NCBI RefSeq assembly: GCF_947077765.1
Contig: NZ_CAMTTF010000002.1
Coordinates: forward strand, 496,001 to 560,000
Direction: 5' to 3'
Source of the DNA: Salinibacter grassmerensis
Lineage (GTDB): Bacteria > Bacteroidota > Rhodothermia > Rhodothermales > Salinibacteraceae
Length of the DNA stretch: 64,000 nt
Shown here: positions 8,565-29,607 of the stretch, piece after piece
How the letters are laid out: the number at the start of each line of letters is the position of its first letter
Position numbering within the stretch: the first letter of the stretch is position 1
Translations under genes and position numbers: made by a program
Notes under the pieces: generated by a model
The model's database searches: none
Told to the model about the DNA's origin: nothing
What the model saw: the letters and a program-made list of their open reading frames with translations, nothing else

Positions 8565-8903
8565 ATGGATAAGCATTCCAACTTGGAGAAGTCGTTCTTT
8601 GAACGCGTCTGGGCCGTTGTTGAAGAGATTCCGGTGGGCCGCGTCACCACCTACGGCGACATTGCCGAACACCTCGGGCGCCGGGGGGCGGCCCGGATCG
8701 TCGGCTGGGCGCTGAAGGACGCAGTGGGGGGCGACCTGCCCTGCCACCGCGTGGTGAACCGCAATGGGGTCCTGACGGGCCGGCGCCACTTCGAAGCGCC
8801 CCACGTCATGGAGGAGCGGTTGCGCAGCGAAGGGGTCACGTTCGTGGCCGAGGATCAGGTGGATCTCGATGCGCACCGCTGGCGGCCCGAAGAGATGAGG
8901 TAG
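8565..8903 (+). CDS. MGMT-family (O6-alkylguanine-DNA alkyltransferase-like) protein
   Basis: A 112 aa single-domain member of the methylated-DNA-protein-cysteine methyltransferase family. It has the helix-turn-helix DNA-binding segment (IPVGRVTTYGDIAEHLGRRGAARIVGWAL), the active-site PCHRVV motif and NRNGVLTG. The acceptor Cys is kept, unlike Atl1-type proteins, which have Trp there. Direct alkyl transfer is thus plausible, although the N-terminal domain of Ada/Ogt is absent. The start is ATG at 8565 (MDKHSNLEKSFF). It is the intact copy of a gene that also appears as two wrecked copies at 15957-16130 and 23905-24216, each at the head of the same repeated leader-susC module. Confidence 0.88.
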   Translation: MDKHSNLEKSFFERVWAVVEEIPVGRVTTYGDIAEHLGRRGAARIVGWALKDAVGGDLPCHRVVNRNGVLTGRRHFEAPHVMEERLRSEGVTFVAEDQVDLDAHRWRPEEMR

Positions 8904-9672
8904 AACGCATGGAAGACCGTCTGCCCACGTCCCCGTCGCAGTCCTCGGGTTGACAAGAAAGTTTCGGGGAGACGGGTCTCCGTTCCGCTCGTGTCTTCTA
9001 GGGACTGCGCACAGAACGTTTGGAGGAGGAAAGGTCGAAATCGCTGTGTAGCGGATCCGTGTTCGTGTATGCCAGGGCCTGGTGGGTCGCGTAGGTACAC
9101 CCTAGAAGGAACAGCGACGAGGCACTCCGGCTCAGCCGATCAACATTCTGGTCCACAATAATTTCATGCTTATGCTCCCATATATTTAAAATATAAGCTA
9201 GTAAATATGAAGAAATAGTGTTGTCAGGTAAGAGAGAACCGCCGGACTTATCCATCAGTCAGTGGGGCCGAAAATCAGGCCCTACTGCATTCATCAAATT
9301 AATAAAAACTCAAATTTGTTCACCATTTTTAGCAAAAAATATATATATGTTGCCGAAAGACGAGCATGAGTCGGGAACTGAGACGGAAGCCCCCCGCGAT
9401 GAGGCCCTCCAAACCCCGTTGGGAGGGCATTCTACCTTTTGACATTCTCTCCATGGCGATTAACATTGGGTTATCGCTGAGCGATAGACGCTGGAAGTTC
9501 TACTTGAAAAAGTGTTAAGAACCGTGTAGTAGTCTCTGCACATTACTTCTTCACGTTTTCTGGCATGGCGTGCCTTCAAGCCGCTGCATGGTTCGTGTGA
9601 AGCGAAACGCCATGCGCTCTAATCTCCTCGCTTAGGACCCCCAGATAGATTACTCACAGACAGCCCAAAACG
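8904..9672 (+). other. Spacer and long leader of susC locus 1, with AT-rich island
   Basis: No gene is seen here. The first half matches the spacer of copy 2. Around 9165-9350 there is a marked AT-rich island (runs such as ATATTTAAAATATAA and AAAAAATATATATATG) in an otherwise GC-rich window. The regulatory box is at 9439-9476, leaving about 200 nt of leader before the susC start at 9673. Confidence 0.6.
9439..9476 (+). promoter_or_regulatory. Conserved susC upstream box, copy 1
   Basis: These 38 bases are identical to 16673-16710. They contain TTGACATT and TTAACATT as a direct repeat whose starts are exactly 21 bp apart (two helical turns), followed by GGGTTATCG. They can also be read as a -35 TTGACA, a 17 bp spacer and a poor -10 (AACATT). 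The box lies 234 bp before the susC ATG. Confidence 0.6.
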
Positions 9673-12600
9673 ATGAAGCGACTGATACCAAGCGTTGTTT
9701 TCGGCCTCGCCCTCCTGCTCCTTCCGGGGCTGGCGTGGGCCCAGCAGGGAACCATCACCGGAACGGTGACAGAGGCGGAAACCGGCAACTCCTTGCCCGG
9801 GGCGACCATCCAGATTGTGGGCGAAAATACTGGTGCGGCCTCCGATGTTGACGGTCAGTATCAGATCACGGGAGTTCCTGCTGGCGAGCAGACCCTTCGG
9901 GTATCGTTTGTTGGGTATCAGGGGCAGGAACGCACTGTGAATGTACCGGCCGACGGTACAGTTCGGGCGAACTTCCAGCTCCGGACGAGCCAGGCTCAGA
10001 TGGAAGAGATCGTCGTGTCAAGTTACGCTGTTGAAGAGGATGTGCGCGTCACGGGTGCCTCCGAGGCGGTGAGCGGGGCCGACATTGAATCGCAGAACGT
10101 ACAGAACGTCTCTGGCGCCCTGCAGGGACGGGCGTCAGGAATCCGAATTACGTCTCAAAGTGGCGCTCCGGGATCGGCCTTTGACGTCCAGGTGCGCGGC
10201 CAAGCAAGCATCAGTGGAGGACAGCAACCTCTGTATATCATCGACGGGATTCAGGTTGGTCCCGAGAACATCTCCAACGAGGGCAACCTGAGTCCCCTTG
10301 CTGGCCTTAGTCCCTCCGACGTAGAGTCGGTGCAGGTATTGAAAGACGCATCGGCCACGGCTATTTACGGCGCACGAGCGGCCAACGGAGTGGTCATAAT
10401 CCAGACCAAGGGAGGCGGTGGAGAGACGCGAGTGAACTTCAGCTCCCAGGTCGGGGCGGTCAGTCCACTCGAGGAATATAACATCCTTTCGGCCAGCGAG
10501 TGGGTAGAACACGAGTTTTTGAAAGCCCGAAATGCAGGCGATTCGCCCGCGGACGTTGCTGATGATTTCGGAATTCCTAGCACCAACCCCGATGAGGTTA
10601 CCGGGCCTGACTGGTACGATCAGTCCACGCGCACTGGCATCACGCAATCGTATCAACTCTCCGTGAGCGGAGGTGGTGAACGGACCAATTTCCGCCTCTC
10701 TGGCTCCTTTGAGCGAGACAAGGGGCAGGTCATTGAGTCTTTCCTGAACCAGACAGGACTCCGGGCCAATGTTCAGCACGATGCCACGGATTACCTCTCT
10801 CTGTCGAGCAAGGTAAATCTCGTGCAGAACAAGTCTCGTGGGACGATCGGAGGTGGAGCCTTCGTCAACAGTCCCTTCTGGGCGTCCTACCTGATCCGTC
10901 CTCACCTTGACGTCCGAAACGAGGAGGGGGATTACAACTTGCCTCTGTCAGGAGGGGGAGCATTCAACAGAAATATTGTTGCGCAAGAAGACTTTAACTC
11001 CCAGAGCACAGATGGCGTTCAGATTCTTGGGAATGTCTCAGCAACACTGAGTCTCACTGACTGGCTCAGTGCCCGTACCGTCTTTGGCCTGGACTTCAAC
11101 GACCTGTCAGAGAAGGATCGTCGAGACCCCCGTCTGCCAAACAATGCAGATATCGGCGGAAGTGCCTTCGTAAGCGACACTCGTGAAGTGGGTCTGAATG
11201 TGAGCCAGACGCTCAACTATGATCTCTCGCCGGGCGAGCGCCATGACGTCTCTGGACTTTTTGGTGCCGAGTACCGCCGCCAGAGAGAAGCGTTTAACGG
11301 GTCTGACGGAGAGGGCTTCCCTCTGTTCGAATTTCAGAATCTCGACAACGCGGCCAACCCGGTCGGAGTCGACGAGTTTGAGACCGAGTCGCGGTTCCTA
11401 GGCTTCTTCGGGGATGCAGAGTATACGTACGACGACCGGTACACCGGAAGCCTGACGCTTCGTTACGACGGGTCCTCCCGGTTTGGTGAAGACTCCCGGT
11501 ACGGCCTCTTCGGGTCGGTCGGCGGGTCCTGGACAATCTCTGAGGAAGCGTTCATGGAAGACGTAGGGTTTGTAGAGGATCTGGAGCTACGTGGAAGCTA
11601 TGGCGTACTGGGGAATAGCGACTTCCAGGCTGCCTTTGGCAACTTCGCTGCCCGACAGCTCTACGGGGGAGGTGGAGAGTATTCGGGAGTTGCCGGAATT
11701 GAACCCGCATCTCTGGGCCGATCAGATCTTACCTGGGAGGAGTCAACTCAGATTAACATCGGGCTTGACTACTCAGTCTTCGGTGGGCGCCTCTCGGGGT
11801 CGGTTGACGCCTTCCGTAACGACACCGACCAGCTTCTGCTTGGACGTGACCTTCCTGCCGACAGTGGCTTTGATACTGTCCTCGACAACGTCGGAGAAAT
11901 TCGAAATGAGGGGCTTGAGTTCTCCTTCAACACTGTCAACATCGACCGGGGCGATTTTCGGTGGGACACGGAGTTCAACATCACCTTCCAGCGGAGCGAG
12001 GTTCTTTCCCTCTTCGATGGGCGCGAGGAAATCCGGAATGACCAACAGCCTGGTGGTGAACTTTACCGCGTAGGCGAGCCCTTGGGCCAATATGAGCAAG
12101 TGCCATGGGCTGGAGTCAACCCGGCTAACGGGCGCCCGCTGTACGAAGACGAAAACGGGAACCTCACTTACTTCGTCGGTGGTCAGTCCGCCGAACAGAC
12201 GTACGGGAACAGCCAGTCGGACTTTTACGGAGGATTCGGAAATACATTCTCGTACGCTGGGCTGACGCTGGATGTCTTCTTTCAGTATGACTACGGCCGG
12301 AATACATTCAACAACGACCGTTACTTCATCGACGGAAACTTCAGCTTCAATCACACCGAGAACGTGACGGAAGACTACTGGGAAGAGCCCGGTGACGTCA
12401 GTGAGCGTCCCCTTCCGTGGGCCGGAAACCGCCCTGGGGGATCTGGTTACAACTCGGGATTCTTTAGCTCCTCAGTGTACATGGAGGACGCCTCCTACAT
12501 CCGACTGAAGCAGGTGCGCCTCAGTTACTCGTTGCCCTCCTCCCTTCTCGAAGGGGTGGGAATCCAGGGCATCACTGTGTACGTCAACGGAAGTAACCTG

Positions 12601-12708
12601 CTTACCTTCACAAACTACACTGGACTGGATCCGGAAATCGTGGGTACAGCTCTTGCCCAATACCCGAACAACCAGCGTATCAGTGGAGGCATTGACTTGA
12701 CGCTGTAG
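9673..12708 (+). CDS. SusC/RagA-type TonB-linked outer membrane receptor, locus 1
   Basis: This 1011 aa receptor should form the outer-membrane barrel half of a SusCD nutrient importer, powered by TonB-ExbBD. A signal peptide (LIPSVVFGLALLLLPGLAWA, cleavage before QQG) is followed by a CarboxypepD_reg-like domain (about residues 25-105, with GTVTEAETGNSLPGA and VSFVGYQGQERTV). The TonB-box region, the plug (about 115-235; LYIIDGIQVG, VLKDASATAIYGARAANGVVII) and a 22-strand-type barrel ending in an aromatic-poor DLTL follow. SusD partner 12869-14302 is 160 bp downstream. The 5' end is nearly identical to that of the locus 2 receptor, while plug and barrel differ. The substrate is unknown. Confidence 0.94.
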   Translation: MKRLIPSVVFGLALLLLPGLAWAQQGTITGTVTEAETGNSLPGATIQIVGENTGAASDVDGQYQITGVPAGEQTLRVSFVGYQGQERTVNVPADGTVRANFQLRTSQAQMEEIVVSSYAVEEDVRVTGASEAVSGADIESQNVQNVSGALQGRASGIRITSQSGAPGSAFDVQVRGQASISGGQQPLYIIDGIQVGPENISNEGNLSPLAGLSPSDVESVQVLKDASATAIYGARAANGVVIIQTKGGGGETRVNFSSQVGAVSPLEEYNILSASEWVEHEFLKARNAGDSPADVADDFGIPSTNPDEVTGPDWYDQSTRTGITQSYQLSVSGGGERTNFRLSGSFERDKGQVIESFLNQTGLRANVQHDATDYLSLSSKVNLVQNKSRGTIGGGAFVNSPFWASYLIRPHLDVRNEEGDYNLPLSGGGAFNRNIVAQEDFNSQSTDGVQILGNVSATLSLTDWLSARTVFGLDFNDLSEKDRRDPRLPNNADIGGSAFVSDTREVGLNVSQTLNYDLSPGERHDVSGLFGAEYRRQREAFNGSDGEGFPLFEFQNLDNAANPVGVDEFETESRFLGFFGDAEYTYDDRYTGSLTLRYDGSSRFGEDSRYGLFGSVGGSWTISEEAFMEDVGFVEDLELRGSYGVLGNSDFQAAFGNFAARQLYGGGGEYSGVAGIEPASLGRSDLTWEESTQINIGLDYSVFGGRLSGSVDAFRNDTDQLLLGRDLPADSGFDTVLDNVGEIRNEGLEFSFNTVNIDRGDFRWDTEFNITFQRSEVLSLFDGREEIRNDQQPGGELYRVGEPLGQYEQVPWAGVNPANGRPLYEDENGNLTYFVGGQSAEQTYGNSQSDFYGGFGNTFSYAGLTLDVFFQYDYGRNTFNNDRYFIDGNFSFNHTENVTEDYWEEPGDVSERPLPWAGNRPGGSGYNSGFFSSSVYMEDASYIRLKQVRLSYSLPSSLLEGVGIQGITVYVNGSNLLTFTNYTGLDPEIVGTALAQYPNNQRISGGIDLTL

Positions 12709-12749
12709 GCGCTCACCACTCCAGTATGAGCTACCTCCTGATCTCCTGT

Positions 12750-12791
12750 GTTCCGTCCTGTCCTCTCAAGAGACAGGGGGCAGGGCGGAAC
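12750..12791 (+). other. Intercistronic stem-loop, susC1-susD1
   Basis: Imperfect inverted repeat GTTCCGTCCTGTCC... / ...GGGCAGGGCGGAAC without a U-tract, between the receptor and its SusD partner. It probably affects processing or stability of the co-transcript rather than ending it. Confidence 0.55.
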
Positions 12792-12868
12792 GGAAGAGGG
12801 GCAGGCCACAGTCCCGTCTTCCACTCGCCCCCTTCGCACGCATTTCGTACTCACTCTTTCCAGATTCT

Positions 12869-14302
12869 ATGAGGATACCGCAACTCACCCCCCGAATTCT
12901 GTTGGTAGGCATGGTCGGGGTCGCCCTCAGCCTTACTCTTTCATCTTGTGATAATCTGCTGGATGTCGAGCCGCAGCAGGATGTCCAGCCGGAGGCGGCT
13001 TTTTCCTCTGAGGGAGGATTCGAGTCGACCCTCAGCTCCACCTACGATGACCTCCAAGATGTTGGTTATTACGGGCAATTCTACATGTTGTACCCGGAGG
13101 CGCTGGCCGACAATGCGATCAACCTCTCGGGGGTAGCCCGCTACGACGGCCCACCCCAGAACGCTGCTCGTGAGCACCTGAACAGATGGGGGGGGCACTA
13201 CACGAGCATCAACAAGGCGAATACGCTCATCGCCGAGAGTCAGAATTTCGACGAAGCCGACGAGGCATTCAAAGAAAGGATACGAGGAGAGGCGCTTTTT
13301 CTTCGGGCCCTCAATTACTTTGACCTCATCCGCACAAAAGCGTACGAGCCGGGGGAGGAGGTGAATGGGTTCACGCAGGGAGTCATCCTGCGCACGGAGC
13401 CCACCAGGTCGGCAGAAGTGGCTTCCGAGCGTCTGCCTCGTGCGCCCACCAGTGAGGTTTACGACCAGATCGAGACGGATCTACAGAATGCCCGTAGCCT
13501 CCTAGCTGGAACGAAAAATGGCAGATTCAAGGCCAACGAGGCGGCGGCGCAGGCTTTGCTTGCACAGGTACGCCTCTACCGAAAAGACTTTGAGGGTGCT
13601 GCCACCACGGCAACTGCTGCTCTGGAGACTGCCAGAGACAGTCTGGATGCCGATCTCCTTACCGAAGACGAGTACGTTGAGGCTCACGTAGGAGAGACGA
13701 TGTCCAGCGCCCTCTTTTCCATCAACATGAACCCTGATTTCGATGGTGACGCGACCAGCGTGAATGAATCCCTCTCGTCACTTACTCACGATCCAGGGTC
13801 GTTCAACTTCCAGCTTCTTCCTACCCAAGACCTCATTGATGCTCACGCGGACGGCGATGTCCGTGCGGAGCTTTACGAGACCCTACCCTCAGGGGACACG
13901 CGCATCAACAAGTATACCCAGGCCGTGGGGAGCTACACCGATAACATTCCCGTCATCCGGGCCGCGGAGGTGCTTCTGATCCGCGCGGAGGCGCGATTCG
14001 AGAATGGTAACGAAAGTGGTGCCCTCGAAGATGTGAATACACTGCGCTCCGCCCGTGGGCTAGAGAAGGTCTCGCTCAGTGGTGAAAGCCTCATTGACGA
14101 GATTCTGAAACAGAAGCGCTTAGAATTGGCCTTCGAAGGAGAGCGTTTCTTCGATCTCAAGCGGCGGGGCATGGATATCCCGAAGCCACAGGTTGCCACC
14201 CCCGACGTGTCCTTGGCTTACGAGGACCGACGCGTCTTAGCACCGATTCCCTCAGGCGAGGTCCAGCTCAACGGTCAGCTTGACCAGAATCCCGGCTATT
14301 AA
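12869..14302 (+). CDS. SusD/RagB-type outer membrane lipoprotein, locus 1
   Basis: The extracellular lid and ligand-binding lipoprotein that pairs with the SusC-type receptor just upstream. The lipobox is at about residues 24-27 (LSSC, then DNLLDVEPQ). The 477 aa show family landmarks: a helical TPR-like N-terminal part (IRGEALFLRALNYFDLIRTK), the KANEAAAQALLAQVRLYRKDFEGA repeat, and C-terminal RAAEVLLIRAEARFENGN, LKQKRLELAFEGERFFDLKR and PIPSGEVQLNGQLDQNPGY. The last is the classical SusD C-terminus. It lies in an operon with susC1 and probably with the lipoprotein at 14472. Confidence 0.94.
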   Translation: MRIPQLTPRILLVGMVGVALSLTLSSCDNLLDVEPQQDVQPEAAFSSEGGFESTLSSTYDDLQDVGYYGQFYMLYPEALADNAINLSGVARYDGPPQNAAREHLNRWGGHYTSINKANTLIAESQNFDEADEAFKERIRGEALFLRALNYFDLIRTKAYEPGEEVNGFTQGVILRTEPTRSAEVASERLPRAPTSEVYDQIETDLQNARSLLAGTKNGRFKANEAAAQALLAQVRLYRKDFEGAATTATAALETARDSLDADLLTEDEYVEAHVGETMSSALFSINMNPDFDGDATSVNESLSSLTHDPGSFNFQLLPTQDLIDAHADGDVRAELYETLPSGDTRINKYTQAVGSYTDNIPVIRAAEVLLIRAEARFENGNESGALEDVNTLRSARGLEKVSLSGESLIDEILKQKRLELAFEGERFFDLKRRGMDIPKPQVATPDVSLAYEDRRVLAPIPSGEVQLNGQLDQNPGY

Positions 14303-14344
14303 CCACCAGGGTAAAAGCGCGTCGTCGTGACGAGGAGCGAATAG

Positions 14345-14379
14345 GATCATCCCGGTGCGGGGCTGGCACTGGGATGATC
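14345..14379 (+). other. Stem-loop between susD1 and the following lipoprotein gene
   Basis: Inverted repeat GATCATCCCGGTGC / GCACTGGGATGATC around a GGGGCTG loop, with no U-run. It is probably an mRNA processing or stability element inside the operon. Confidence 0.55.
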
Positions 14380-14471
14380 GTCTGCTCTTCGCCGTTTTGG
14401 AAGGCTGCTTTCCTCCGCCTCCCCCTGTCCACTACAGACTATCTTGTAAATAAGGTCGAATCCATAGACAC

Positions 14472-15284
14472 ATGAACACCGCTAAACGTTGCTTCGCGCT
14501 TACCCTGGTCGTGCTCGTTTCAGTAAGCATGATGGGGTGCTTTGACCAAGTCGTCGAGCCCGAGTACGATGGCCCCCCCAAGGTCCAGTTTGATCCAACG
14601 AGTAATTCTGTTCCTGATGGTGCGGGAGCCCAGGAACTCAATATCCAGCTCATTGCGCCGCAACAGTCCAGTGACAGCCAGTTCCCGGTGACCGTTGTCG
14701 ACACGGGAGACATCGCGACGACTCTGCCATCGGACGAGTACGAATTGGTTTCTGAAACCGCTACAATTCCTGCTGGCAGCAGCTTTGGAACGGTACAGGT
14801 GCGTGTCGACTCGTCTGGAATCCCACCGGGGGAAACACAGCTCTTGACGCTGGCCCTGGAAGAAAGTTCGAACAGTGACATCGTCCCGGCGACCAACTTT
14901 CAGTTCTTTGAGCTCACGGTCGCCGGGCGCTCAGCGGACGTTCGTCCAGAACCTGCCTCTCTTTCCTTTGACACCATAGAGGCTGGTTCTACGGCCCGGG
15001 ACACACTTGCGGTTGTCAACGAGGGGACTGCGCCCTCCGACGTCAGCAACCTAGCCGTTTCGGGCATGGATGCGGGCCGCTTTAGCATCGAAGCACCGGC
15101 GGGAGATTCGTTTACCCTCCCTCCTGGAGAAAGCCAGGAGGTCGTTGTCGATTTCGCGCCCGAGGGCACCCTGTCCGATACGACCGACTACGCGGGCTCG
15201 GTTGACTTCCAGTTCACGAACGTTCCGGACGGCCCGGGAGAAGCTAGTGCGGAGCTGACAGGAACCGGGATCCCACAACCCTGA
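14472..15284 (+). CDS. Surface lipoprotein with Calx-beta-like and choice-of-anchor-D-like domains
   Basis: A 270 aa lipoprotein (SVSMMGC lipobox near residue 23). The N-terminal half resembles the Calx-beta/DUF4843 type of Ig-like domain that often accompanies SusCD pairs (VPDGAGAQELNIQL, TIPAGSSFGTVQVRV). The C-terminal half (about residues 150-268) has the pattern of a choice-of-anchor D/ASH-type beta-sandwich (PASLSFDTIEAGSTARDTLAVVNEG, LPPGESQEVVVDFAPEG, GTGIP). It is the third gene of locus 1 and is followed by a strong terminator, so it probably closes the operon. It is a candidate surface glycan- or protein-binding accessory; the ligand is unknown. Confidence 0.75.
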   Translation: MNTAKRCFALTLVVLVSVSMMGCFDQVVEPEYDGPPKVQFDPTSNSVPDGAGAQELNIQLIAPQQSSDSQFPVTVVDTGDIATTLPSDEYELVSETATIPAGSSFGTVQVRVDSSGIPPGETQLLTLALEESSNSDIVPATNFQFFELTVAGRSADVRPEPASLSFDTIEAGSTARDTLAVVNEGTAPSDVSNLAVSGMDAGRFSIEAPAGDSFTLPPGESQEVVVDFAPEGTLSDTTDYAGSVDFQFTNVPDGPGEASAELTGTGIPQP

Positions 15285-15322
15285 TCTGACCCCGAGCGTT
15301 CAGCTGATTCCTGACGTCTTTC

Positions 15323-15361
15323 AAAGCGGCGGTGCTCCGATCGGGGCACCGCCGCTTTTTA
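15323..15361 (+). terminator. Rho-independent terminator of susCD locus 1
   Basis: A long perfect stem (AAGCGGCGGTGC / GCACCGCCGCTT) with a short loop and a following T-run, 39 bp after the last gene of locus 1. Confidence 0.9.
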
Positions 15362-15956
15362 TTTGTGATGGATGTCGTTCGTGACGGATAAATCCTGTGC
15401 GGCCCGCAGGGAATATGCGCACTGCACCCCCAAACGCCTGCTTCCGACAATAAAGCTGCTCTGGCGCGACAGGTCGGCTCGATGCCGGGCCGGTCCGTGT
15501 GCGGTCTCGTCACCAGAAAAGGTTCAGGGCCACAGCCCTGCGCACGTGCGTCCCGCGCGATAGGCGAGCGAGCTCTTCATCCCCTCAGATCTCTTGACCT
15601 GCTTGAAGGGGTTGCTTCTGCGGGTCTCCATTACCGCCTGCGACAACATTGCCGGTTCGTTCGAGCAGTGGAAAGTGGGACTACAGTCCCGTCGGCCATT
15701 GGTCCTGGTCAACGCAACTGAGACTGACGTGGCCCGCTCCACGACCCTCTTTGTACACAACACCTCAGGCATTGACTCGACCTGAAGGTTGATGGTGTTC
15801 CACGGAAGAGGGCCGCTGCTGCCTGCAGTGGTCCTTTTTGTGCGCTGATGTGCGTCGCATTCCGTCACGACCACACCCACGACCACACCGTGCCCCCATC
15901 AGAAAATCCGGCACGTGAGTTTCCAATCTCCAATTAACGCCCCGAGTCCAACTGGC
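15362..15956 (+). other. Unassigned region ending in an orphan terminator
   Basis: No coding frame is recognised. The stretch has no clear counterpart in copy 1. It ends with a terminator-like hairpin at 15809-15839, which implies that something is or was transcribed rightwards through it, such as a decayed gene or a small RNA. Confidence 0.4.
15809..15839 (+). terminator. Orphan terminator-like hairpin
   Basis: An 11-bp stem including G-U pairs (AGGGCCGCTGC / GCAGTGGTCCT), a 5-nt loop and a following T-run. No intact gene lies immediately upstream. Confidence 0.6.
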
Positions 15957-16130
15957 AGCAAGCCGCCCGGCCACCGCGTGGTGGGCCGTAATAGGGTCCT
16001 GACGGGCCGGCGCCACTTCGAAACGCCCCCCGTCATGGGGAAGCGTCTGCGCAGTAAAGGGGGTACGTTCGTGGCGGAAGACCGGGTGGGTCTCGACGCG
16101 CACCAATGGCGGCCCGAGGAAACGAAGTGA
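15957..16130 (+). pseudogene. MGMT-family gene stub (module copy 2)
   Basis: The C-terminal half of the 8565-8903 gene. The frame reads PPGHRVVGRNRVLTGRRHFETPPVM and continues to the same C-terminus (DAHQWRPEETK). The N-terminal helix-turn-helix half is missing and the acceptor Cys is Gly (PCHRV to PGHRV), so it cannot be an alkyltransferase. The reading frame of the stub has stayed open to the original stop. It sits at the head of module copy 2. Confidence 0.85.
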
Positions 16131-16910
16131 AACGCACGAACAGGGGGCGACTACCCCGTGCCGTGGTCGTTGGAACCGTGGAGAGAGAAGTGTAAGGCAG
16201 GTGCATCTCCGCGCCGTTCGTATCTTCCAAGAACTTCGCCCAAGACGTTTGAGGAGAGGAAGCTGAACTGGCGCGTGGTGAGAGCCTGTGTCTGTGCATG
16301 TCAGGCCCCAATGCACTGCGGAGATGCATCTTGGGAGGAAAAGCGATCGAGCATTCCGGCTCAGCCTCAATTTCCTCGGTCCCCAGAGCCTGTACCGCTG
16401 CACTTTATTCGTTCGTAGACACGGCGATGTGAAATACAAAGCTTTTGGAAGATTACCCACCCTACGCAGTGTAGAGTCGCCGGGTTCGTCCGTCTGTGAA
16501 ACCAAAACTGGTCTCTATTATGTTCATTAAGTCAAGAAAAAGTTAATTTAAACTGCCGCGTTCTGGTCTTGAACGCAAGTGAAATGCTAGAAGACAAGCG
16601 TGAGTCGGGAATTTGAATGGGGAACTCCCGGAACGAGCCCATCCAGGCTTCGTCGAGGCTTCTTGCGGTCTCTTGACATTCTCTCCATGGCGATTAACAT
16701 TGGGTTATCGTCAGATAAGAAAAACCGAAAATCTTGTTTTAGGCAGCGTTAAAATAAATTTGCTGGTTCTGTAATCCTAACATTCTTTTTCCTACCTAGG
16801 GTGGAGGGGGCCCCGGTTCAGCGCACGATCCGATGACGGTAGGATGTTACGCGGCCTAGAAGATTTTACTCAAGAGCCTCAAATAGATTACTCATACACA
16901 GCCCAAAACG
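16131..16910 (+). other. Spacer and leader of susC locus 2
   Basis: No gene is seen. It is homologous to 8904-9672, with shared blocks such as GTGAGTCGGGAA near 16600. AT-rich patches flank the regulatory box (about 16515-16555 and 16720-16780). Confidence 0.6.
16673..16710 (+). promoter_or_regulatory. Conserved susC upstream box, copy 2
   Basis: Identical over 38 bases to 9439-9476, with TTGACATT and TTAACATT 21 bp apart. It lies 238 bp before the susC2 ATG, almost the same distance as in copy 1. Confidence 0.6.
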
Positions 16911-19900
16911 ATGAAGCGACTGATACCAAGCGTTGTTTTTGGCCTCGCTCTCTTGCTCCTTCCGGGGCTGGCGCGAGCCCAGCAGGGCACTGTCACAGGA
17001 ACAATTACGGAGGCGGAAACAGGCAATCCCCTGCCCGGAGCCACTGTCCAGGTTCAGGCCGAGGGCACAGGTACCGCTAGTGGCTCTGACGGCCAGTACC
17101 GTATCCCCGGTGTTCCGGCTGGAGAGCAGACCATCCGGGTGACCTTCGTCGGATACCAGGCGCAGGAACGCTCCGTGAATGTGCCGGACGGAGGTACCGT
17201 TCGGGTGAATTTCCAACTCCAGGCGGGTCAGGCTGAACTTGATGAGGTCGTCGTGACGGGAGTTTCGCAGGGGACCGAGACCGCAAAGCTGGGGTTTTCC
17301 GTCGAAAAGGTTGACGGTGAAGATCTAAATCGGGTGCCGAGCACTGACCCTGCGAACGCACTCCGTGGACGAATATCAGGAGCTGAAATTGTTCGGCCTT
17401 CCGGAGAGCCTGGATCTTCTCCGAATATCCGGCTCCGCGGCACGACAACCCTTCAGGGGTCACAGTCGCCACTCATCGTGGTAGATGGCGCGATCACGCA
17501 GGGGTCCCTGGAAGACATTGACATGCAGAACGTAGAGTCGATAGAGGTCATCAAGGGGGCCGCGGCCGCCTCACTTTACGGGTCGCTTGCTGCTAACGGA
17601 GTAGTTCAGATTATCACCAAGCAGGGAAGCGGAGACGTTGGGGATACACGCGTTACGGTTCGGAGCGAACTGGGAACGAACCAGCTTGCCAACAAAGTCC
17701 CTACTGCAGACCACCACCGTCGGCAAGGCGCATATCGCCCGTTGGCATCGGAGAGCTCCACCTGTGATTTCAATCCGTGCGGCGCGAATCCGCTGGCCGA
17801 AGACGGTGTGATCGATAATGATTATCAGGGGGATACCTTCGATAACCAGGAGCGACTCTTCGGGGGCAATACGTTCTCGACGAACTACGTTGAACTGGCC
17901 TCTACCCAAGAGAATCTGCGGTATACTCTCTCTTTCGAAAACCTTCAGCAGGGAGGAATCGTCAAGGAGGTTGACAACTACACACGTCGAAACTTTCGGG
18001 TGAACCTCGGAAACGACATTCGAGAGTGGGCAACCGTGCAACTCTCGGGGCTCTACTCCAGGCGAAACGGGCCTGACGTGACGGAGCAGGGGCAGGGTGG
18101 GAATCCCTTCTACAGTACCCTTATTGCACCTGATGACCTCAACCTGTCGGCACCTCCGCCTGACTCGGCCAACATCGACGCAAAGTATAATCCCTTTACC
18201 AATTCCGGAAATGCCGGAAACCCGCTGTACGAACTGGCCACGAACAACGACGAACTTGATGAGGAGCGCCTGTTCGGAAATGTTCGTCTCAATCTGGAGC
18301 CGACGGACTGGCTAACAGTAAATGGCCAGTTCAGCTACGACCGTGAGGAAAATGACTTCAATACGTTCACGGCGGCGGGAACGCAGCCCGCTTCCCCGAC
18401 GGGAACGCCCAGCACGGGTTCTATCTTTGAGTCGGACGGCTTTGAACGCCTCTACATCGCCGAAGGGAGCTTTACGCTGGAAGAAGAGGTGGCCAACCTC
18501 AGGGCTCAATTCACCGGCCGATACAACTACGAGAACAGGGAAGGGAGAAACATAAGTAGCTTCGGCGAAAACTTTCAGGCCCGCGGAGTACCTCAGTTTG
18601 GGAACACGGATCCGGAGAACCTCAGCGTGAACTCAAGCGAGTTTACCGTGAAGGCTGAAAACCAGATTGGAAACCTCGTCCTGGACTACGACGACACCTA
18701 CATCCTGGATGGTGTCCTGAGACGAGAGGGCGTTTCGCTGTTCGGAGCCAAAGACAGATACAAGACATACTTCCGAGTCGCGGGAACCTATCGCCTCACG
18801 CAGGACCTTGATATTCCGAGTGTCGGTCAGCTCAAGCTCCGAGGGTCCTACGGGACATCAGGCCAGCGCCCGCCCTTCTCGGCACAGTACGAGACGTTCA
18901 ATGTGACATCAGCGGGAATCAACAAGCAGCAGCTCGGAAACGAAGATCTGCAGCCCTCCACCGTCTTCGAGACCGCGGTTGGAATAGACGTTGCCTTTCT
19001 TGAGCGCTTTAACTTCAGTGGCACGTTTTCCGATCAGAGCGCGGAAGACCAAGTACTTTCCGTACCGCTGTCATCTGCACTCGGATTTACTTCTCAGTTC
19101 CAGAACGCCGGAACCGTCGAGTCTACTACATGGGAGTTCAGTCTGGGTGGACGCGCATACCAAGGAGACAGCTTCACAGCTGATTTCAATCTGACCTGGG
19201 ACCGTACCCGGCAGGAGGTAACGGAACTCAATCGCTCAACCTTCATCCGGAGCGCCGGATCGGCGGCCTCAATCTACCGGATTGGAGAGGGCATCAGCTT
19301 GGGGTCTATCTTCACGAACAAGATTGCCCGTTCGGTCGATCAGGTTAACTTTGACGAGAATGGTGAGGTTATCGGACGGCAGGGCCCTGATGGAAATGCG
19401 CTTACGGAAGATGACCTCACGATCAACGACCAAGGGTTCGTTATCGTGGACGGAACGCAGTACACTTCCAACGAGGCTCCAGTCTTCATCCGAGAAGACA
19501 ACGGAAATAAGAAGACGTTGAAGACTGGAAATGCCATCCCGGACTTTAGCATGGGACTGAGCACGACCCTCAGCTACGACAACTTCACCCTTTATGCACT
19601 GGCCGACTGGCAGCAAGGGGGAGACGTCTACAACTATACCCGACAGCTGCTCACCTTCAACGAACAGAGCGCTCTCGTCGACCAGGCCGATAGGCCTGAG
19701 GGGCAGCGTCACACCTTCGGGTACTTCGAAAGTGGGGTCTACAATACTTCAAACCCGTCCGCTTTCTGGGTCGAAGATGGAAGCTACCTAAAGATCCGAG
19801 AGATTTCTCTGTCCTATAGGATTGGCACAGGTCTTCTGCAACGAGCAGGCATCGGAAATGTGCTCCAGGGTGCAGAAATTTCTCTCTCTGGGCGAAATCT

Positions 19901-20042
19901 CTTCACGTTTACCGATTACACGGGGTACGACCCAGAGGTGTCGGTGCAAGGGGGAGACAACCAGCCCACTAACTTCCGGGTCGATGACTACGCATACCCC
20001 AACTTTCGAACATACACTGCCCAGGTTGAGCTGACGTTTTAA
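16911..20042 (+). CDS. SusC/RagA-type TonB-linked outer membrane receptor, locus 2
   Basis: A 1043 aa receptor with signal peptide, CarboxypepD_reg-like domain (about 25-105), plug (about 115-235; PLIVVDGAITQG, VIKGAAAASLYGSLAANGVVQI) and beta-barrel ending in AQVELTF. The terminal Phe is the usual outer-membrane assembly signal. Its first 26 codons and leader are nearly base-identical to locus 1. The CarboxypepD domain is still similar, but plug and barrel have diverged, so it should bind another substrate. It has two Cys in an extracellular-type segment (STCDFNPCGANP). Partner SusD2 lies 105 bp downstream. Confidence 0.94.
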   Translation: MKRLIPSVVFGLALLLLPGLARAQQGTVTGTITEAETGNPLPGATVQVQAEGTGTASGSDGQYRIPGVPAGEQTIRVTFVGYQAQERSVNVPDGGTVRVNFQLQAGQAELDEVVVTGVSQGTETAKLGFSVEKVDGEDLNRVPSTDPANALRGRISGAEIVRPSGEPGSSPNIRLRGTTTLQGSQSPLIVVDGAITQGSLEDIDMQNVESIEVIKGAAAASLYGSLAANGVVQIITKQGSGDVGDTRVTVRSELGTNQLANKVPTADHHRRQGAYRPLASESSTCDFNPCGANPLAEDGVIDNDYQGDTFDNQERLFGGNTFSTNYVELASTQENLRYTLSFENLQQGGIVKEVDNYTRRNFRVNLGNDIREWATVQLSGLYSRRNGPDVTEQGQGGNPFYSTLIAPDDLNLSAPPPDSANIDAKYNPFTNSGNAGNPLYELATNNDELDEERLFGNVRLNLEPTDWLTVNGQFSYDREENDFNTFTAAGTQPASPTGTPSTGSIFESDGFERLYIAEGSFTLEEEVANLRAQFTGRYNYENREGRNISSFGENFQARGVPQFGNTDPENLSVNSSEFTVKAENQIGNLVLDYDDTYILDGVLRREGVSLFGAKDRYKTYFRVAGTYRLTQDLDIPSVGQLKLRGSYGTSGQRPPFSAQYETFNVTSAGINKQQLGNEDLQPSTVFETAVGIDVAFLERFNFSGTFSDQSAEDQVLSVPLSSALGFTSQFQNAGTVESTTWEFSLGGRAYQGDSFTADFNLTWDRTRQEVTELNRSTFIRSAGSAASIYRIGEGISLGSIFTNKIARSVDQVNFDENGEVIGRQGPDGNALTEDDLTINDQGFVIVDGTQYTSNEAPVFIREDNGNKKTLKTGNAIPDFSMGLSTTLSYDNFTLYALADWQQGGDVYNYTRQLLTFNEQSALVDQADRPEGQRHTFGYFESGVYNTSNPSAFWVEDGSYLKIREISLSYRIGTGLLQRAGIGNVLQGAEISLSGRNLFTFTDYTGYDPEVSVQGGDNQPTNFRVDDYAYPNFRTYTAQVELTF

Positions 20043-20061
20043 GCCCTCCTTCTTCCTTGCA

Positions 20062-20088
20062 GGGCTGGCGGGCATGATCCGCCAGCCC
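20062..20088 (+). other. Intercistronic stem-loop, susC2-susD2
   Basis: Perfect 10-bp stem GGGCTGGCGG / CCGCCAGCCC with a 7-nt loop and no T-run, between receptor and SusD partner. Confidence 0.6.
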
Positions 20089-20147
20089 CTGAAGGGAAAA
20101 GCGCACGGTATCTCGGTATATTCTGTACCTGCACAACTCCAAACGCT

Positions 20148-21962
20148 ATGATAAATCGACAGTTACGAAGAATCGTATTCCCCTTGCTCTTCCTCGCAGG
20201 AGCGGTGTTTCTTGTCTCCTGCGACGGAGTGGCGGACCTGGACGTTGAGAACAAAAATGCTCCTGACCGTGAGCAGGCGGTCACAGATCCCGGAGATGTT
20301 CAGTCGATTCTTCAAGGAGCCTACCGAAGCTTTTACGTAGGAATATACAGTTCGGGTAACTTCCCGGGTCCTCACTTGGACATGATGGGTGGGGCAGTCA
20401 CCACGACGAACGCTTTCGATGAATTTATTAGCTTCTCTGTCAAGCCGATGGGGCAGGTTCAAAACACCAGCGGATACTCCGGTGCTGGTGTCATGGAGGT
20501 TCCATGGAATAACCTCAACGCAGCCCTCTCCTCATCAAACGATGTGCTTACCTCAATCGAGGTGGACGATCTCGAGATTACTATCGACGGCAACGACCAG
20601 ACAGCGCGGACTCGCGCGGGAGCGTACCTGGTTCGGGGGCTCTCCCACGGATACATTGCCAATCTCTTCAACCAGGGATACGTCCAGACCTTGGATTTTC
20701 CCCAGAACGCGAGCCAGCCAGCATTGAGTGGATACGGGACAGTTGTAGACCAGGCCATCAGTGACCTGCAACAAGCCCGAACGATCGCCGAAAACAATTC
20801 CTTTGACCTTGCCGGATTGCTTCCCTGGCAGTCTCCCCCCTCCTCACCGCAGGTGGCGAGCATTGCAAACACCATGTCTGCGCGTTTTCTGGTCCAAAAT
20901 AGCCGTACTCTCGACGAAAACACCAGCAGCACGATCGGTGGGTCTGAAGAGTACGGGTGGAATGACGTTTTGGGCTGGACCCAGAATGGCATCGATGAGG
21001 ACATTGATCTGCAGCTTTCTACAAATCCATACGAAGATAGTTACGCGGGCCTGAGTACCGTTGTAAACTGGTATTACCGGGCTGACCATCGCATTATCAA
21101 CCTCATGGACCCAGACTACCCGGCCCGCTACCCGGTAGGCCGGGCCGAGGCCGCTGAGGCGATCCCTTCCTCTGAGAACCTGGGCTCCCCCCCAGCAGAC
21201 GATCGAATCTGTGAAGAGCCGAAATCACTGGATACGGACGGTGGCTTTGGCCATATCGACGGCGCTGGCCGAAAACCTGAAGGGTGCTTTTACATCTACA
21301 CCAATGACTTTCAGGCCGGGTTTGACGCAGGGAGAGATGCGTCCTCGTTCAGTACCTACTTCTGGGCGCCGCAGTGGGCAACCACTATCGGCAATGAGAC
21401 GCCGTACGGAGGAGGCCCGAGGCCCCTCTTTTTGGTGAACGAAAATCGCACCCTTCAGGCCGAAGCGGAGATTCGAGCTCCAAATGGAGGTGGAGTCTCT
21501 GCGGCCGAGGCAATTATTAACGATGGAAGCCGCACCAATATCGGAGGGCTTCCTGACCTCAACGGCTCCACCGAGAATGAGGCCCTAAGGGCGATCTACT
21601 ACGAGCGAGCCGTGCAACTGCAGCGCACCGTGCCTGCGCTGGCCTGGACGGACCTGCGACGGCGGGATGCGCTTTTCGAGGGCACCCCCAAGCACCTCCC
21701 CGTTCCTGCGGAGGAGCTTAACACCGTCCAGCGTGACCTGTACACCTTCGGTGGAGGCGGGAATGCAGGCCAACCGGGGACTGCATCTGGCGAGTCGGCC
21801 TGGTGCACTGGTGACAATCCGCTTGTCGGCAACACGGTCCCCTCCTCTGGATGCGATCCCTCCGGATACAGCGCTCCTGCGGCATCAAACAGCAGCCTAG
21901 ACGGTTCCAAGGGCGTGGAGAGTTCTTCATCACGCTCATCTGCACGCACACCACAGCAGTAG
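20148..21962 (+). CDS. SusD/RagB-type outer membrane lipoprotein, locus 2
   Basis: A 604 aa lipoprotein (lipobox LVSC near residue 25, then DGVADLDVENKNAPD), the substrate-binding partner of the receptor at 16911-20042. SusD features include VENKNAPDREQAVTDPGDVQSILQGAYR, a helical repeat region (ARTRAGAYLVRGLSHGYIANLFNQGY) and late family motifs (EALRAIYYERAVQLQRT, LAWTDLRRRDALFEGTPKHLPVPAEEL). Four Cys occur in the second half (RICEEP, EGCFY, SAWCTG, SGCDP), possibly two disulfides. The tail after about residue 560 is Ser-rich and low complexity. It is longer than SusD1 and not closely similar to it. Confidence 0.92.
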   Translation: MINRQLRRIVFPLLFLAGAVFLVSCDGVADLDVENKNAPDREQAVTDPGDVQSILQGAYRSFYVGIYSSGNFPGPHLDMMGGAVTTTNAFDEFISFSVKPMGQVQNTSGYSGAGVMEVPWNNLNAALSSSNDVLTSIEVDDLEITIDGNDQTARTRAGAYLVRGLSHGYIANLFNQGYVQTLDFPQNASQPALSGYGTVVDQAISDLQQARTIAENNSFDLAGLLPWQSPPSSPQVASIANTMSARFLVQNSRTLDENTSSTIGGSEEYGWNDVLGWTQNGIDEDIDLQLSTNPYEDSYAGLSTVVNWYYRADHRIINLMDPDYPARYPVGRAEAAEAIPSSENLGSPPADDRICEEPKSLDTDGGFGHIDGAGRKPEGCFYIYTNDFQAGFDAGRDASSFSTYFWAPQWATTIGNETPYGGGPRPLFLVNENRTLQAEAEIRAPNGGGVSAAEAIINDGSRTNIGGLPDLNGSTENEALRAIYYERAVQLQRTVPALAWTDLRRRDALFEGTPKHLPVPAEELNTVQRDLYTFGGGGNAGQPGTASGESAWCTGDNPLVGNTVPSSGCDPSGYSAPAASNSSLDGSKGVESSSSRSSARTPQQ

Positions 21963-21997
21963 GCCTTTTCTAATCCTTCCGATTAGGTCTTTCCATG

Positions 21998-22030
21998 GCC
22001 GGAGCCCATGCAGGGCTCCGGCTATTTTTA
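21998..22030 (+). terminator. Rho-independent terminator of susCD locus 2
   Basis: Perfect stem GCCGGAGCCC / GGGCTCCGGC with a 5-nt loop followed by TATTTTTA, 36 bp after susD2. Confidence 0.88.
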
Positions 22031-22822
22031 TTTCCTAGAAAACAGTTTTCGGTCCAATCGACCCATCGGGCGCGTTTTCTCTCAGCGCAACGGACTAGGG
22101 AAGAAAAGGGAATGGTCTCCTCTGAGACTGTCGGTCGTGCAAGTGTCCTTGTGACGAGCTCCTGCAGGTGGTAATCTGAGCGACAATGACGTCCGTCCTG
22201 AAACCCTGTGTGTGTCTCTGTTCGTTGGAGTCGCTGCATCCGGACAGCCTGAAGAAACCGTCTGCGACCTAGTCATCCCTGAGGCTAGGTTTTTATTCTG
22301 CAGAGTACGAACGTCCTCCTCACTGTTCTCGATACGGACGTTCGATGGCGATCACTACCGCCATCCAGGGATGCCACGACCACCAAGACCAAGTCCCCTT
22401 GGTGGGGCATCATCGCTTCTCTGTCCGCTTCGCTGCGTTCAGCATGCACGAAGCGCCCCTTTTGTCTTATCTAGCGAGATCTGCGTCCCAGAATTGTCCA
22501 CATCCTGAAGTAACATAAATCCGGAGAGTTCTGCGTGGAAGAAGGGAAACAACACTGCGGTGAGTCCTTCGCCGGTAGGCTGATGGATAAGCACTTGAAT
22601 CTTGAACCTGAGGCCTGCTCCTAAACAATTGTTAAAAGCCCTATCTTCTCCCAGACGTTCTCTCGATCATGCCGAGTGGGCTGGCAGAACGGAAGCGGCA
22701 ACGAACTGGCCACGTCAGGACGACAAAATACTGAAAGTTCTGTTGTTCAAATAACTGGCCTGCTGCTTCCCTTTTTAAGCAGGGCGAAAGGACTACAGGT
22801 GTTTTCTAAGAATGGGGTCCCG
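22031..22822. other. Gene-free region with one strong hairpin
   Basis: No supported gene. A bulged hairpin at 22370-22411 (GATGCC...CCACCAAG / CTTGGTGGGGCATC) stands out but has no T-run. The rest looks like decayed sequence. Confidence 0.4.
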
Positions 22823-23251
22823 CTAATCATTCTCCTCTTCTGGATCGTCCTCTTTCGCCTGGTGGCGGGTAATAACGTAAATGGCTCCTTCCTCGTGTCC
22901 GAGTCCATGTCGGCTCAGTGCCTTATCGGCCTCCAAGCGGTTAACCCGCTGGACGCGGGACAGAGATATGCTGGAGAGGGCGGAAGACCCTTCCCCATAC
23001 CGTTGACCATCCACGTACACTACGAATCCCTTCCTTCGTGTACCGCGGGCGTACGAGTTGTAGTCGCGGTCGGATTGGTGAAGCCAACTCGGCCGATGTT
23101 GCTGAATTAGTCTGAAGGCAGTGCGGGCAGAGCTTCCGTGGATTTCCTGGATCCCGATCTGAGATCGGGTCGTATTCCGTGTCGTCCCACTGGCGGTACA
23201 CCCAAGAAGAGTGACGACAGTCAAGACGAAAAAGGGGAGAGACAATCGCAT
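22823..23251 (-). CDS. Small lipoprotein with TonB-plug-like domain
   Basis: A 142 aa protein with a lipoprotein signal (VLTVVTLLGC, Cys18). The C-terminal part, about residues 75-130, reads like an isolated TonB-receptor plug segment: GFVVYVDGQRYGEGSSAL, then an ISLSRVQRVNRLEADKALSRHG stretch and EEGAIYVITRH, comparable to the plug pattern with vDG, v-r-i--l and GaI-v-T. There is no barrel. It is the only intact-looking gene in the 4 kb decayed stretch between loci 2 and 3, and the only leftward gene in that block. The role is unknown, perhaps interaction with SusD-like proteins. The plug resemblance is moderate evidence. Confidence 0.6.
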   Translation of the reverse strand: MRLSLPFFVLTVVTLLGCTASGTTRNTTRSQIGIQEIHGSSARTAFRLIQQHRPSWLHQSDRDYNSYARGTRRKGFVVYVDGQRYGEGSSALSSISLSRVQRVNRLEADKALSRHGLGHEEGAIYVITRHQAKEDDPEEEND

Positions 23252-23904
23252 AGCGATTGGAGATTGGGTACACCCTCGGCGTAATCGTGGCGACAGCGGG
23301 ACCGGAAACTGTTCTTGATGTGTAGGGGACCTAAACTTTCCCTGGCCGACTGATAGGAACTCTCCCTCACGCCTCCTGAACTCGACGAATTCAAGTGAGT
23401 TGTGGCCGATATTACCTAAATTCAGGTCCTGATGCTGATTTCCGTTTTTTCCTAGGCGGAAGCATTAATAAAAGTCCAGTAATCGATCATCGACGCCACT
23501 CGTGGCAAGAGCGTAAAGTATGCAAAATTTTTCATCTTAGATCCGATAATGCAAGCGTTTTCGGCGAGGCAAGTTTCATCTCTTTGTCAGCTCCGCACGT
23601 AAATTAACATGCGAGCGTATGAGGACAGACATATGTTCGTAATCATTCCCTCGTGTCCAGATCCGAACTGACTTACAATCGTTTCTCCCGTGCACACAGG
23701 TTTTTTCTCCCTCTTTGAACAGTTGAACCTTAGAGCATTCGTCCTTCTTCGATCAGTCTCAAGGTTCGATGTATGATCGATCTAGGTGGTTGACAGTAAA
23801 GTCCGACCCAGCCGCGAGCAGTTTGAGGAAGTTACCCCGAATGAAATTTGCAAACTTCCGTTCAGCTTCAATGCAAGGAGGAGCTACCGATAGCAGATAT
23901 ATCC
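23252..23904. other. Gene-free region upstream of the MGMT relic
   Basis: No gene recognised. AT content is higher than in the flanking loci. It probably contains the promoter of the leftward lipoprotein. Confidence 0.4.
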
Positions 23905-24216
23905 GCCTCTTGTCTCGTCAAATTTGGAAGGTCGCCGCGGAGATTCCGAAGGGAAGTGTTGCCGCAACAGGTGAGGTTTCCGACCCTTCTCCACACCGAA
24001 GAGTTTTCCAGAGTATCTGCCGGGCGGTGAAAGACGCGGTGAGAGCCTCGGCCCCCCCGTCACCGTGCTGGCGGTCTATGATACGGTATCGATGGGCGGG
24101 CCCTATCTCGAAACGCTCCACGTTACAAAGAAGCAGGTACGCAGTGAAGGAGATACGTTCGTCACACTAGGTCAATTCTGCCGAGCACAACTAGCAGCTC
24201 GGCGAAACGAAGTGGA
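23905..24216 (+). pseudogene. Decayed MGMT-family gene (module copy 3)
   Basis: The translated segments IWKVAAEIPKGSVAATGEVSD and KDAVR match WAVVEEIPVGRVTTYGDIAEH and KDAVG of the intact gene at 8565-8903. After a frameshift, the region around 24090-24216 matches the HFEAPHVMEERLRSEGVTFV part and ends in GGCGAAACGAAGTGGAGTGCACGA, like the end of copy 2. The PCHRV site is not preserved. This is the most degraded of the three copies. Confidence 0.7.
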
Positions 24217-24299
24217 GTGCACGAGACACCAGTTTAGCATCTTGCTACTGCACTATTCTTAATCACCGCGCTGTGTTTGGTCGACCAAGCTGCGTCTGA

Positions 24300-25090
24300 T
24301 AATTATTGTCTGAGGTATTTCTCGACGAACGCCCACGGCAACACGGCTGTGGAGCTTTTGCCCTGGAGTGGATCGCTTTCTTTTCGTATTGGATTATTAG
24401 GCGTCGCCGCTCCTTGAGGTGACCAACACAGTGTTCGACGGTATTTCGGTCACGGTACTTTTGGTCATCACACGTCGGCCGGCGCCGAAGGCCGTCTCGG
24501 ATGTTTCGGCGAGCAGGAATGCCGGCCCCGATGTCTTCGTCGGCGAGCCAGCGTCGGACTCAGGCCGCATCGTACCCGCGGTCGCCAGCGGAAGGCCCTG
24601 CTGGCCGACAGGCAGATGAACCGTGGTGAAGACCCCACCTCACAGAACCGACAAGTTCGTACCCAGGAGCGGGTCCTGTGCCTTCGTCTCGCCAAGTTCG
24701 AGTTCCTTCTTATCGTCGTTCGGACCGCCTGCGGCGGAGGATTGCGCTACGCGCATCCAACTGTCTCCAGTCGATGTGCCCTTCAGAATCGAGTTCACCC
24801 TGTAGATGACGTACGGTCGAATCAAGGGGCCGCCAGTGGCCCAGCGGTGAAACCGGTCGCACACCGTCTTCCGATTGCCCCTGCCGCTCAGGAGCATCCC
24901 GCCGGGGAGCCCTAGAGCGCTCTGGTCCAGAAGAATACCGCACGTGACCTTCCGGTGGTGGTCGCACAGACAGCCGCGGCTCCCCACTTCCGGCAGCAGG
25001 CATTCGATATGCTCGTACTGCCGATATGCTCATACTGCTTATCGGTGAGCTGATAGCGGCGTCGAAGCATGATAGAACGCCCTATTTGGT
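24300..25090 (-). mobile_element. IS5-type transposase remnant
   Basis: On the minus strand, fragments in shifting frames line up with an IS5-family (IS427-like) DDE transposase. In order they are the start MLRRRYQLTDKQYEHI, then CDHHRKVTCGILLDQ, then RGNRKTVCDRFHRW, then ELDSEGHIDW, then TTVHLPVGQQGLPLA, and finally TVEHCVGHLKERRRLIIQYEKKA near 24400. Several frameshifts and a short local duplication near 25015-25035 mean it is inactive. Terminal inverted repeats could not be fixed with confidence, so the ends are approximate. Confidence 0.75.
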
Positions 25091-25903
25091 CCCAAAGCCT
25101 ATGCAAACCGTTCATGCAGCTTTTTCATCAGACAGTGCCTTACAAACACGGATCGGACGCATGCTCGGACGCGCGGAAGGCCTGCTTCGGACGTACTCCT
25201 ATCAGTGTGTTCGCGAAGAAGTCTGGGGACAAGTAAGCCGGCTGTGCGAGAATACTACATGCCTGGACCACACGATTCGGTATATGCGCTCCAGCGGGCC
25301 GTGACATCGACGGTGAAGGTGGTTCATTATCCACTCGGTATGAGATTGAACGGATCCCGGATCCGAGTGGAAGAGAAAGAGAGAGGGCCTTCCCGACTTC
25401 CGGCGATCCGAGAAGAACTCTACGCCCTCTCCCTAACGCGCACTTATCGCATAAAGGCAAGTCCGCACGAACGGACCTGAGTGTCGTGCTATTCGGATAC
25501 CTGCCCTTGGCCTCCGAGGAATGTGCGCCAAAATAGACTTCATATTTGAGAATAGAATAGCGGAGTGATGATCCCGAAGCACGAATTTGGAGGCCCAAAC
25601 GTACTGATGGCTGGTGTGGATGGGAAAGTCCCATGACGAGTTCAATCAGAAGGCCTGGAGAGTACTCCGCCTCTCAACATTCTACCCACGGCGACTGCCA
25701 CTGTAGTATTGCTAAAAAGGACCGCTAAAAGTTTTGCATTAGGTGGTGTCAGGGTCCGTGTACTGGTTCCTCCACCTCAGTTTGCTTGTTCTTACCCTCC
25801 GACGATATTCGGGCCGGTGCATGATCCAGGCAGGACGATGCTCAGACATTCCAGAAGAGTCACCCAGGAGTCCAGGTAGATTTTCCATGGACGGGCCGAA
25901 ACG
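25091..25903 (+). other. Decayed spacer and leader of module copy 3
   Basis: No supported gene. The last 280 bases match the pre-box, box and leader of copies 1 and 2 with many substitutions. Confidence 0.5.
25674..25702 (+). promoter_or_regulatory. Decayed susC upstream box (copy 3)
   Basis: TCAACATTCT aligns with TTGACATTCT, but the second half-site 21 bp downstream is largely lost (CTGCCACT). It is 230 bp before the dead susC start, the same spacing as in the living copies. Confidence 0.5.
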
Positions 25904-25990
25904 ACGTAGCGACTGATGCCAAGCGCTGTGTCTGGTCTCGTCCCCTTGCTCCCTCCGGAGCCGGCGTGGGGGCATCAAGGGACGACCCTA
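25904..25990 (+). pseudogene. Relic of a susC 5' end
   Basis: The sequence CGACTGATGCCAAGCG and what follows match the first codons of susC1/susC2 (CGACTGATACCAAGCG...) through the signal peptide. The ATG is ACG and codon 2 is a stop (TAG), and similarity ends after about 85 bases. A third receptor of this family once started here, or the head module was copied without the rest. Confidence 0.75.
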
Positions 25991-26076
25991 GAAAGCCCTT
26001 AGCCTTCAGCGGGAAATTAATTCACGCTTTCGGTCTGTAACCATTGTTACGGCATGATTTGCAAATTGGGAATCTC

Positions 26077-26109
26077 TTGACATTCTGACTCAAGGGGCTC
26101 ACATTGGGT
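26077..26109 (+). promoter_or_regulatory. susC upstream box, locus 3
   Basis: TTGACATTCT and ACATTGGGT are conserved with the boxes of loci 1 and 2 at exactly the same spacing (half-sites 21 bp apart), although the bases between them differ. It lies 197 bp before the susC3 ATG. Confidence 0.55.
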
Positions 26110-29555: not shown

Positions 29556-29573
29556 CCATTGGGACGCGTGCTC

Positions 29574-29607
29574 TTCGCCCCCGGTGGCCGTGTCCGGGGG
29601 CGGAGAA
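29574..29607 (+). other. Intercistronic stem-loop, susC3-susD3
   Basis: Stem TTCGCCCCCGG / CCGGGGGCGGAG with a short loop and no T-run. It occupies the same position as the hairpins of loci 1 and 2. Confidence 0.6.

Follow-up and report, generated by a model that had tools for sequence, protein, structure and literature searches.

A core promoter carried along by cassette duplication as the probable identity of a box shared by three susC-susD operons of Salinibacter grassmerensis

Introduction

Genomic islands carrying SusC/RagA genes have been described in Salinibacter (PMC6060240), and the metagenomic islands of S. ruber show an atypically low GC content and contain many pseudogenes (PMC2800850). 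The locus studied here is part of a 64,000-nucleotide stretch of the genome of Salinibacter grassmerensis (assembly GCF_947077765.1, contig NZ_CAMTTF010000002.1, positions 496,001 to 560,000), which we call the window; all of the features of the locus lie on its forward strand. As in the islands with SusC/RagA genes, the susC and susD genes are found in a variable region, located at 8000-32000 and flanked by MurB and by the conserved genes that come after the island, with a GC content of 0.52-0.60 compared with approximately 0.66. Three susC genes of this region are each preceded by a short conserved sequence, the box. The original prediction, made from the sequence, read the box as the site of a dimeric regulator through which three uptake systems answer to one signal or, alternatively, as a TTGACA-N17-AACATT promoter. 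Our analysis indicates that the box is probably an ordinary core promoter that multiplied when its susC-susD cassette was duplicated in tandem, rather than a special switch for a single signal.

The sigma-70/sigma-A core promoter (TTGACA, 17 bp, TATAAT) shares with the box an exact -35 hexamer, the 17-bp spacing, A at -11, T at -7 and a position ahead of a gene. However, the -10 element here is [A/C]ACATT, and the common form in this lineage appears to be TACATT/TANNTT. The Bacteroidota sigma-ABfr promoter (TTTG/TAnnTTTG; PMC7366714, PMC9723704) is similar in having one TTG upstream and another towards the 3' end of the -10 region, whereas copy 3 of the box lacks the TA and the genome-wide form here is TTGACA-N17-TANNTT. 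In Bacteroides, surface genes are controlled by invertible promoters and DNA inversion (PMC4747536, PMC10939037), and these systems are comparable in combining a shared promoter end with variable surface transporters. Unlike them, the box has no flanking inverted repeats, and the cassettes are arranged in tandem and in direct order; a search for such repeats around the three boxes revealed nothing beyond local palindromes and a single weak pair of 13 nt (16457/16792, 85%).

Distribution of the box

Copies 1 and 2 of the box (9439-9476 and 16673-16710) share an identical stretch of exactly 38 bases, and copy 3 (26077-26109) retains TTGACATTCT and ACATTGGGT in a register unchanged relative to the other two. 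Both points had been predicted and were confirmed. Exact matches to TTGACATT-N16-ACATTGGG occur three times in the window, at 9439, 16673 and 26077, against a chance expectation of 0.14 even when 3 mismatches are allowed. Each match precedes a susC gene, as predicted, and the distance to the ATG is 234 bp for susC1 (9673..12708), 238 bp for susC2 (16911..20042) and 197 bp for susC3 (26274..29555). Our pattern searches covered the whole genome (3.78 Mb), the spacing tests described below covered approximately 1.66 Mb of it, and genes were called using a simple codon-usage caller. With 0-2 mismatches, the whole genome contained no match to the box beyond these three, and among approximately 28 SusC-like N-termini, only those of susC1, susC2 and susC3 have the box in front of them. 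Two near-matches in other genomes were rejected as looking like chance: one, in another genus (L058), lies before an unrelated gene, and the other (G009:C4:1830157) lies inside a gene.

The predicted distance of 21 bp between two half-sites holds only for a repeated ACATT, which is present twice in every one of the three copies at this distance. The half-sites as they had been quoted start 24 bp apart, with 14 bp in between.

The box as a core promoter

Read as a promoter, the boxes of susC1 (9439..9470) and susC2 (16673..16704), which we call type 1, consist of the -35 hexamer TTGACA (9439-9444 and 16673-16678), a 17-bp spacer and the -10 element AACATT (9462-9467 and 16696-16701). The type 2 box of susC3 (26077..26108) combines TTGACA (26077-26082) with CACATT (26100-26105). 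The three copies and all of the orthologous boxes listed have the exact -35 hexamer, and in each copy a 17-bp spacer leads to a -10 element whose bases at -11 and -7 are A and T, as expected for sigma-70/sigma-A. The -10 elements differ from TACATT by one base: position -12 is A in type 1 and C in type 2.

Searching the genome for TTGACA-N17-TACATT with 1 mismatch yielded 16 matches (L269-L284), compared with 1 for the reversed control. Three of the 16 are the boxes themselves, and 11 of the remaining 13 are intergenic with a sense gene downstream, at a distance of 62-288 bp in ten cases and 659 bp in one. The genes behind such matches appear to encode a cold-shock protein, two ParA proteins, two universal-stress proteins and a response regulator, names that come from a reading of the N-terminal sequences and not from family searches. 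In three sister species, the same search gave 41 matches against 4 in the controls, and many of these are clearly the same promoters. The spacing itself was examined in 632 upstream regions with a co-directional neighbor, the window being excluded. When TTGACA (1 mismatch) was followed by TANNNT, the number of sites peaked at N17 (11 sites), with 4 at N18 and 0-2 at other spacings, and a peak at N17 (5 sites) was also seen for the form found in the box,.AC.TT. Because the same architecture stands before unrelated genes, it is best read as a general promoter, and the alternative offered in the original prediction, a TTGACA-N17-AACATT promoter, was supported by this independent test. Beyond this locus, TTGACA-N17-TACATT/TANNTT provides a usable promoter model for a lineage of halophiles related to Bacteroidota, where it has better support than the textbook TTTG/TAnnTTTG.

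Several observations weigh against the core-promoter reading. The -10 elements carry A or C at -12 in place of the T of TANNNT, which is common in sigma-70 promoters although not required, and they are therefore not consensus elements. In the N16 register, type 1 reads TAACAT; a simple E. coli-type scan places copies 1 and 2 in this register (10/12 matches), misses copy 3 and finds no promoter excess in the region (6 against 6.4 expected). In addition, conservation extends beyond the -35 hexamer on both sides, to the CT preceding TTGACA and the TT following it, and the type 2 site of the genomes G004 and G005 consists of two perfect TTGACATT copies that start 21 bp apart, an arrangement that could also be explained by a regulator binding to repeats. 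An unsupervised search for two-block promoters ended up in pyrimidine tracts and was abandoned, and a search of the literature yielded no transcription starts for Salinibacter.

Conservation between species

Among the type 1 promoters (susC1, susC2 and the orthologs in three sister species, G003, G010 and G006), 8/8 positions of the -35 region, 12/15 of the spacer and 6/6 of the -10 element are invariant, compared with 7/40 in the upstream flank. The corresponding values for type 2 (susC3, G003, G010 and G006) are 8/8, 6/15 and 4/6, with 18/40 invariant positions upstream and 33/48 downstream. All orthologs of either type in the four closest species retain A-11 and T-7, and the set conserved across both types is CT.TTGACATT...AC.TTG. 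The prediction of conserved ends with a free middle therefore stands between the types and within type 2, whereas within type 1 the middle is itself conserved; with zero mismatches, it was found only at these promoters, in four species. The region of type 2 that would be transcribed first (26112-26160, CGTAATGCTAAGGTCACACGCTCTACAGC...) is also strongly conserved. Consensus folding of the type 1 and type 2 leaders gave a weak predicted structure for either, and we therefore claim no riboswitch; an Rfam search at the locus gave no match.

Origin of the three copies

Copies 1 and 2 belong to a tandem duplication with an offset of 7.23-7.24 kb. At the head of the first cassette lies an O6-methylguanine-DNA methyltransferase gene (MGMT/ogt, 8565..8903; PF01035), whose 3' end is repeated before cassette 2 (8731-8909 and 15958-16136, 82% identity). 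Also repeated are 120 bp of the promoter region (73%) and 209 bp at the start of susC (81%). Within the 120-bp block, the 38 bases of the box are 100% identical and the remainder only approximately 60%; the box thus also appears to be under selection.

A dead cassette lies just upstream of the third box. It consists of an MGMT remnant (24182..24224), a fourth type 1 promoter, now decayed (25674..25705, TCAACATTCTACCCACGGCGACTGCCACTGTA), and a relic of a type 1 susC start (25904..25980), in which the ATG has become ACG at 25904 and codon 2 is TAG. The decayed promoter has lost its -35 hexamer (now TCAACA) and A-11, as the susC relic has lost its start codon, and these two promoter losses fit selection on the box in the live copies.

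The type 1 cassettes have copies of the MGMT 3' end in front of them, as does the type 2 cassette of G003, G005 and G006. The two MGMT copies of G003 (112 and 110 amino acids) share a 279-bp stretch of DNA that is 98.9% alike, as gene conversion would produce; the copy before the type 2 susC of G006 is broken; and in G005, the MGMT gene itself lies immediately before the box. Taken together, the repeated pieces of MGMT, promoter and susC start and the dead cassette indicate that the box is most likely common to the three operons through descent of duplicated cassettes. This duplication would explain why only these genes share the box, and what looked like a regulon becomes an ordinary promoter duplicated along with its gene.

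The following mechanism probably explains these findings. The box would be read by the main, sigma-A/sigma-70-type RNA polymerase through TTGACA, the 17-bp spacer and [A/C]ACATT, a variant form of TACATT, the -10 element common in this organism. From the position of these elements we infer use of sigma-A, promoter activity and transcription starts approximately 7 bp past the -10 element (~9474, ~16708 and ~26112), with leaders of 160-200 nt ahead of susC. A cassette comprising the MGMT 3' end, promoter, leader, signal peptide and SusC N-terminal domain was probably copied in tandem at the MGMT locus in this Salinibacter-like lineage, and selection probably retained the two polymerase contacts in the live copies while they were lost in the dead one.

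Mosaic SusC proteins

Compared in bins of 60 residues, SusC1 and SusC2 are 80% and 65% identical in the first two bins and 14-42% beyond. In G006, the type 1 susC and the neighboring MNRW-type susC are 75-93% alike over most of their length and 58% over the first 60 residues (the two genes lie in L103/L241). These patterns suggest that type 1 SusC proteins are mosaics in which a 5' module of promoter, leader, signal peptide and N-terminal domain is fixed and the barrels are exchanged. More tentatively, and as a possibility we hold to be less likely than not, the box might form the leading part of an expression module that is movable, a ready-made expression site at the Salinibacter MGMT locus behind which susC barrels and susD genes are swapped by recombination. 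If true, this would reveal a way for such genomes to bring new transporters under the control of a promoter that is already there.

Alternative explanations

The alternative that fares best is an addition to the core promoter and does not exclude it. The type 1 spacer could contain an operator, the imperfect dyad TCNCC-AY-GGNGR, and the initially transcribed region of type 2 could contain an element of its own (CGTAATGCTAAGGTCACACGCTCTACAGC), each responding to a different signal. The invariant positions agree with this, being concentrated in the spacer of type 1 and, in type 2, downstream of the promoter and not in the spacer, as does the restriction of the exact type 1 middle to these promoters in four species. 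However, ordinary promoters at orthologous genes also keep near-identical spacers, which makes spacer conservation alone a weak argument, and upstream regions contain no excess of the dyad (3 found, 5.7 expected). We therefore claim no type 1 operator and regard this addition as possible but rather doubtful.

According to the regulator hypothesis, the box is bound by a dimeric activator or response regulator through ACATT direct repeats two helical turns apart, and one signal reaches all three susC-susD operons. The exact 21-bp distance in all three copies, the restriction of the exact box to these susC genes and the TTGACATT-N13-TTGACATT site of G004 and G005 are in its favor, the last being its best remaining support. 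However, the second TTGACATT in these genomes has its own N17-TAGACT or N17-TAGGGT, and we read the pair as two overlapping promoters. No ACATT pair at 21 bp (ACATT-N16-ACATT) was found in 976 other upstream regions, nor any further box in the genome; instead, the same half-sequences at the same distance are the -35/-10-like pairs seen before many unrelated genes, and the restriction of the box is accounted for by duplication. No regulator gene was apparent among the gene calls at the locus, not all of which were searched, and the same applies to a pair of extracytoplasmic function (ECF) sigma and anti-sigma factors. Control of the latter kind (FecIR-type) finds no counterpart in the SusC proteins either, in which Pfam gives only CarbopepD_reg, Plug and barrel matches and no STN signaling domain. 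A dimeric-regulator site is thus unlikely. Nor does the predicted single signal follow from a shared basal promoter, since the box is common through cassette duplication and such a promoter is compatible with separate control; the two types differ in spacer and initially transcribed region. The three operons therefore probably share a basal promoter, but not necessarily a common signal.

A classical Bacteroidota sigma-A promoter, with TTTG at about -33, TAnnTTTG at about -7 and TAACATTG as the -7 element, appears equally improbable. Copies 1 and 2 do fit TTG-N19-TAnnTTTG with one mismatch (TAACATTG), but copy 3 and its orthologs have TC, CC or AG in place of TA, the genome-wide peak belongs to TTGACA-N17-TANNTT, and exact TTTG-N17-22-TAnnTTTG gave 11 matches against 5 in the controls. 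Finally, the idea that the box has no function and merely reflects recent duplication draws on the fact that the cassettes are duplicates, but it is very hard to reconcile with 38 identical bases in a block that is 73% identical overall, and with a box that forms a conserved island between species too and is degraded in the dead copy.

Other genes of the locus

All three SusC products matched CarbopepD_reg_2 and Plug, and susC1 and susC3 also matched the TonB barrel model; over its first 120 amino acids, SusC2 is 65-80% like SusC1, and 14-42% in the remainder. In cassette 1, susC1 is followed by susD1 (12869..14302, SusD_RagB) and a lipoprotein-like gene (14472..15284), and in cassette 2, susC2 is followed by susD2 (20148..21962), which has a weak SusD-like_3 match. 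Strong terminator-like hairpins after the lipoprotein-like gene (15323-15358) and after susD2 (21995-22025) make cassettes 1 and 2 look like separate transcription units. The type 2 operon contains susC3, whose product begins MFRKLLS, susD3 (29559..31292, SusD-like_2) and, as its third gene, one with a domain match to fasciclin/DUF7282 (31293..32657). Elsewhere, at G000:C1 ~400400 (L143), a promoter-like site with TTGACATT is followed by the palindrome GTAAGCGCTTAC, which resembles a LacI-family operator; the gene at G000:C1:400474 follows after 78 bp, and the susC at G000:C1:401751 lies downstream of this region.

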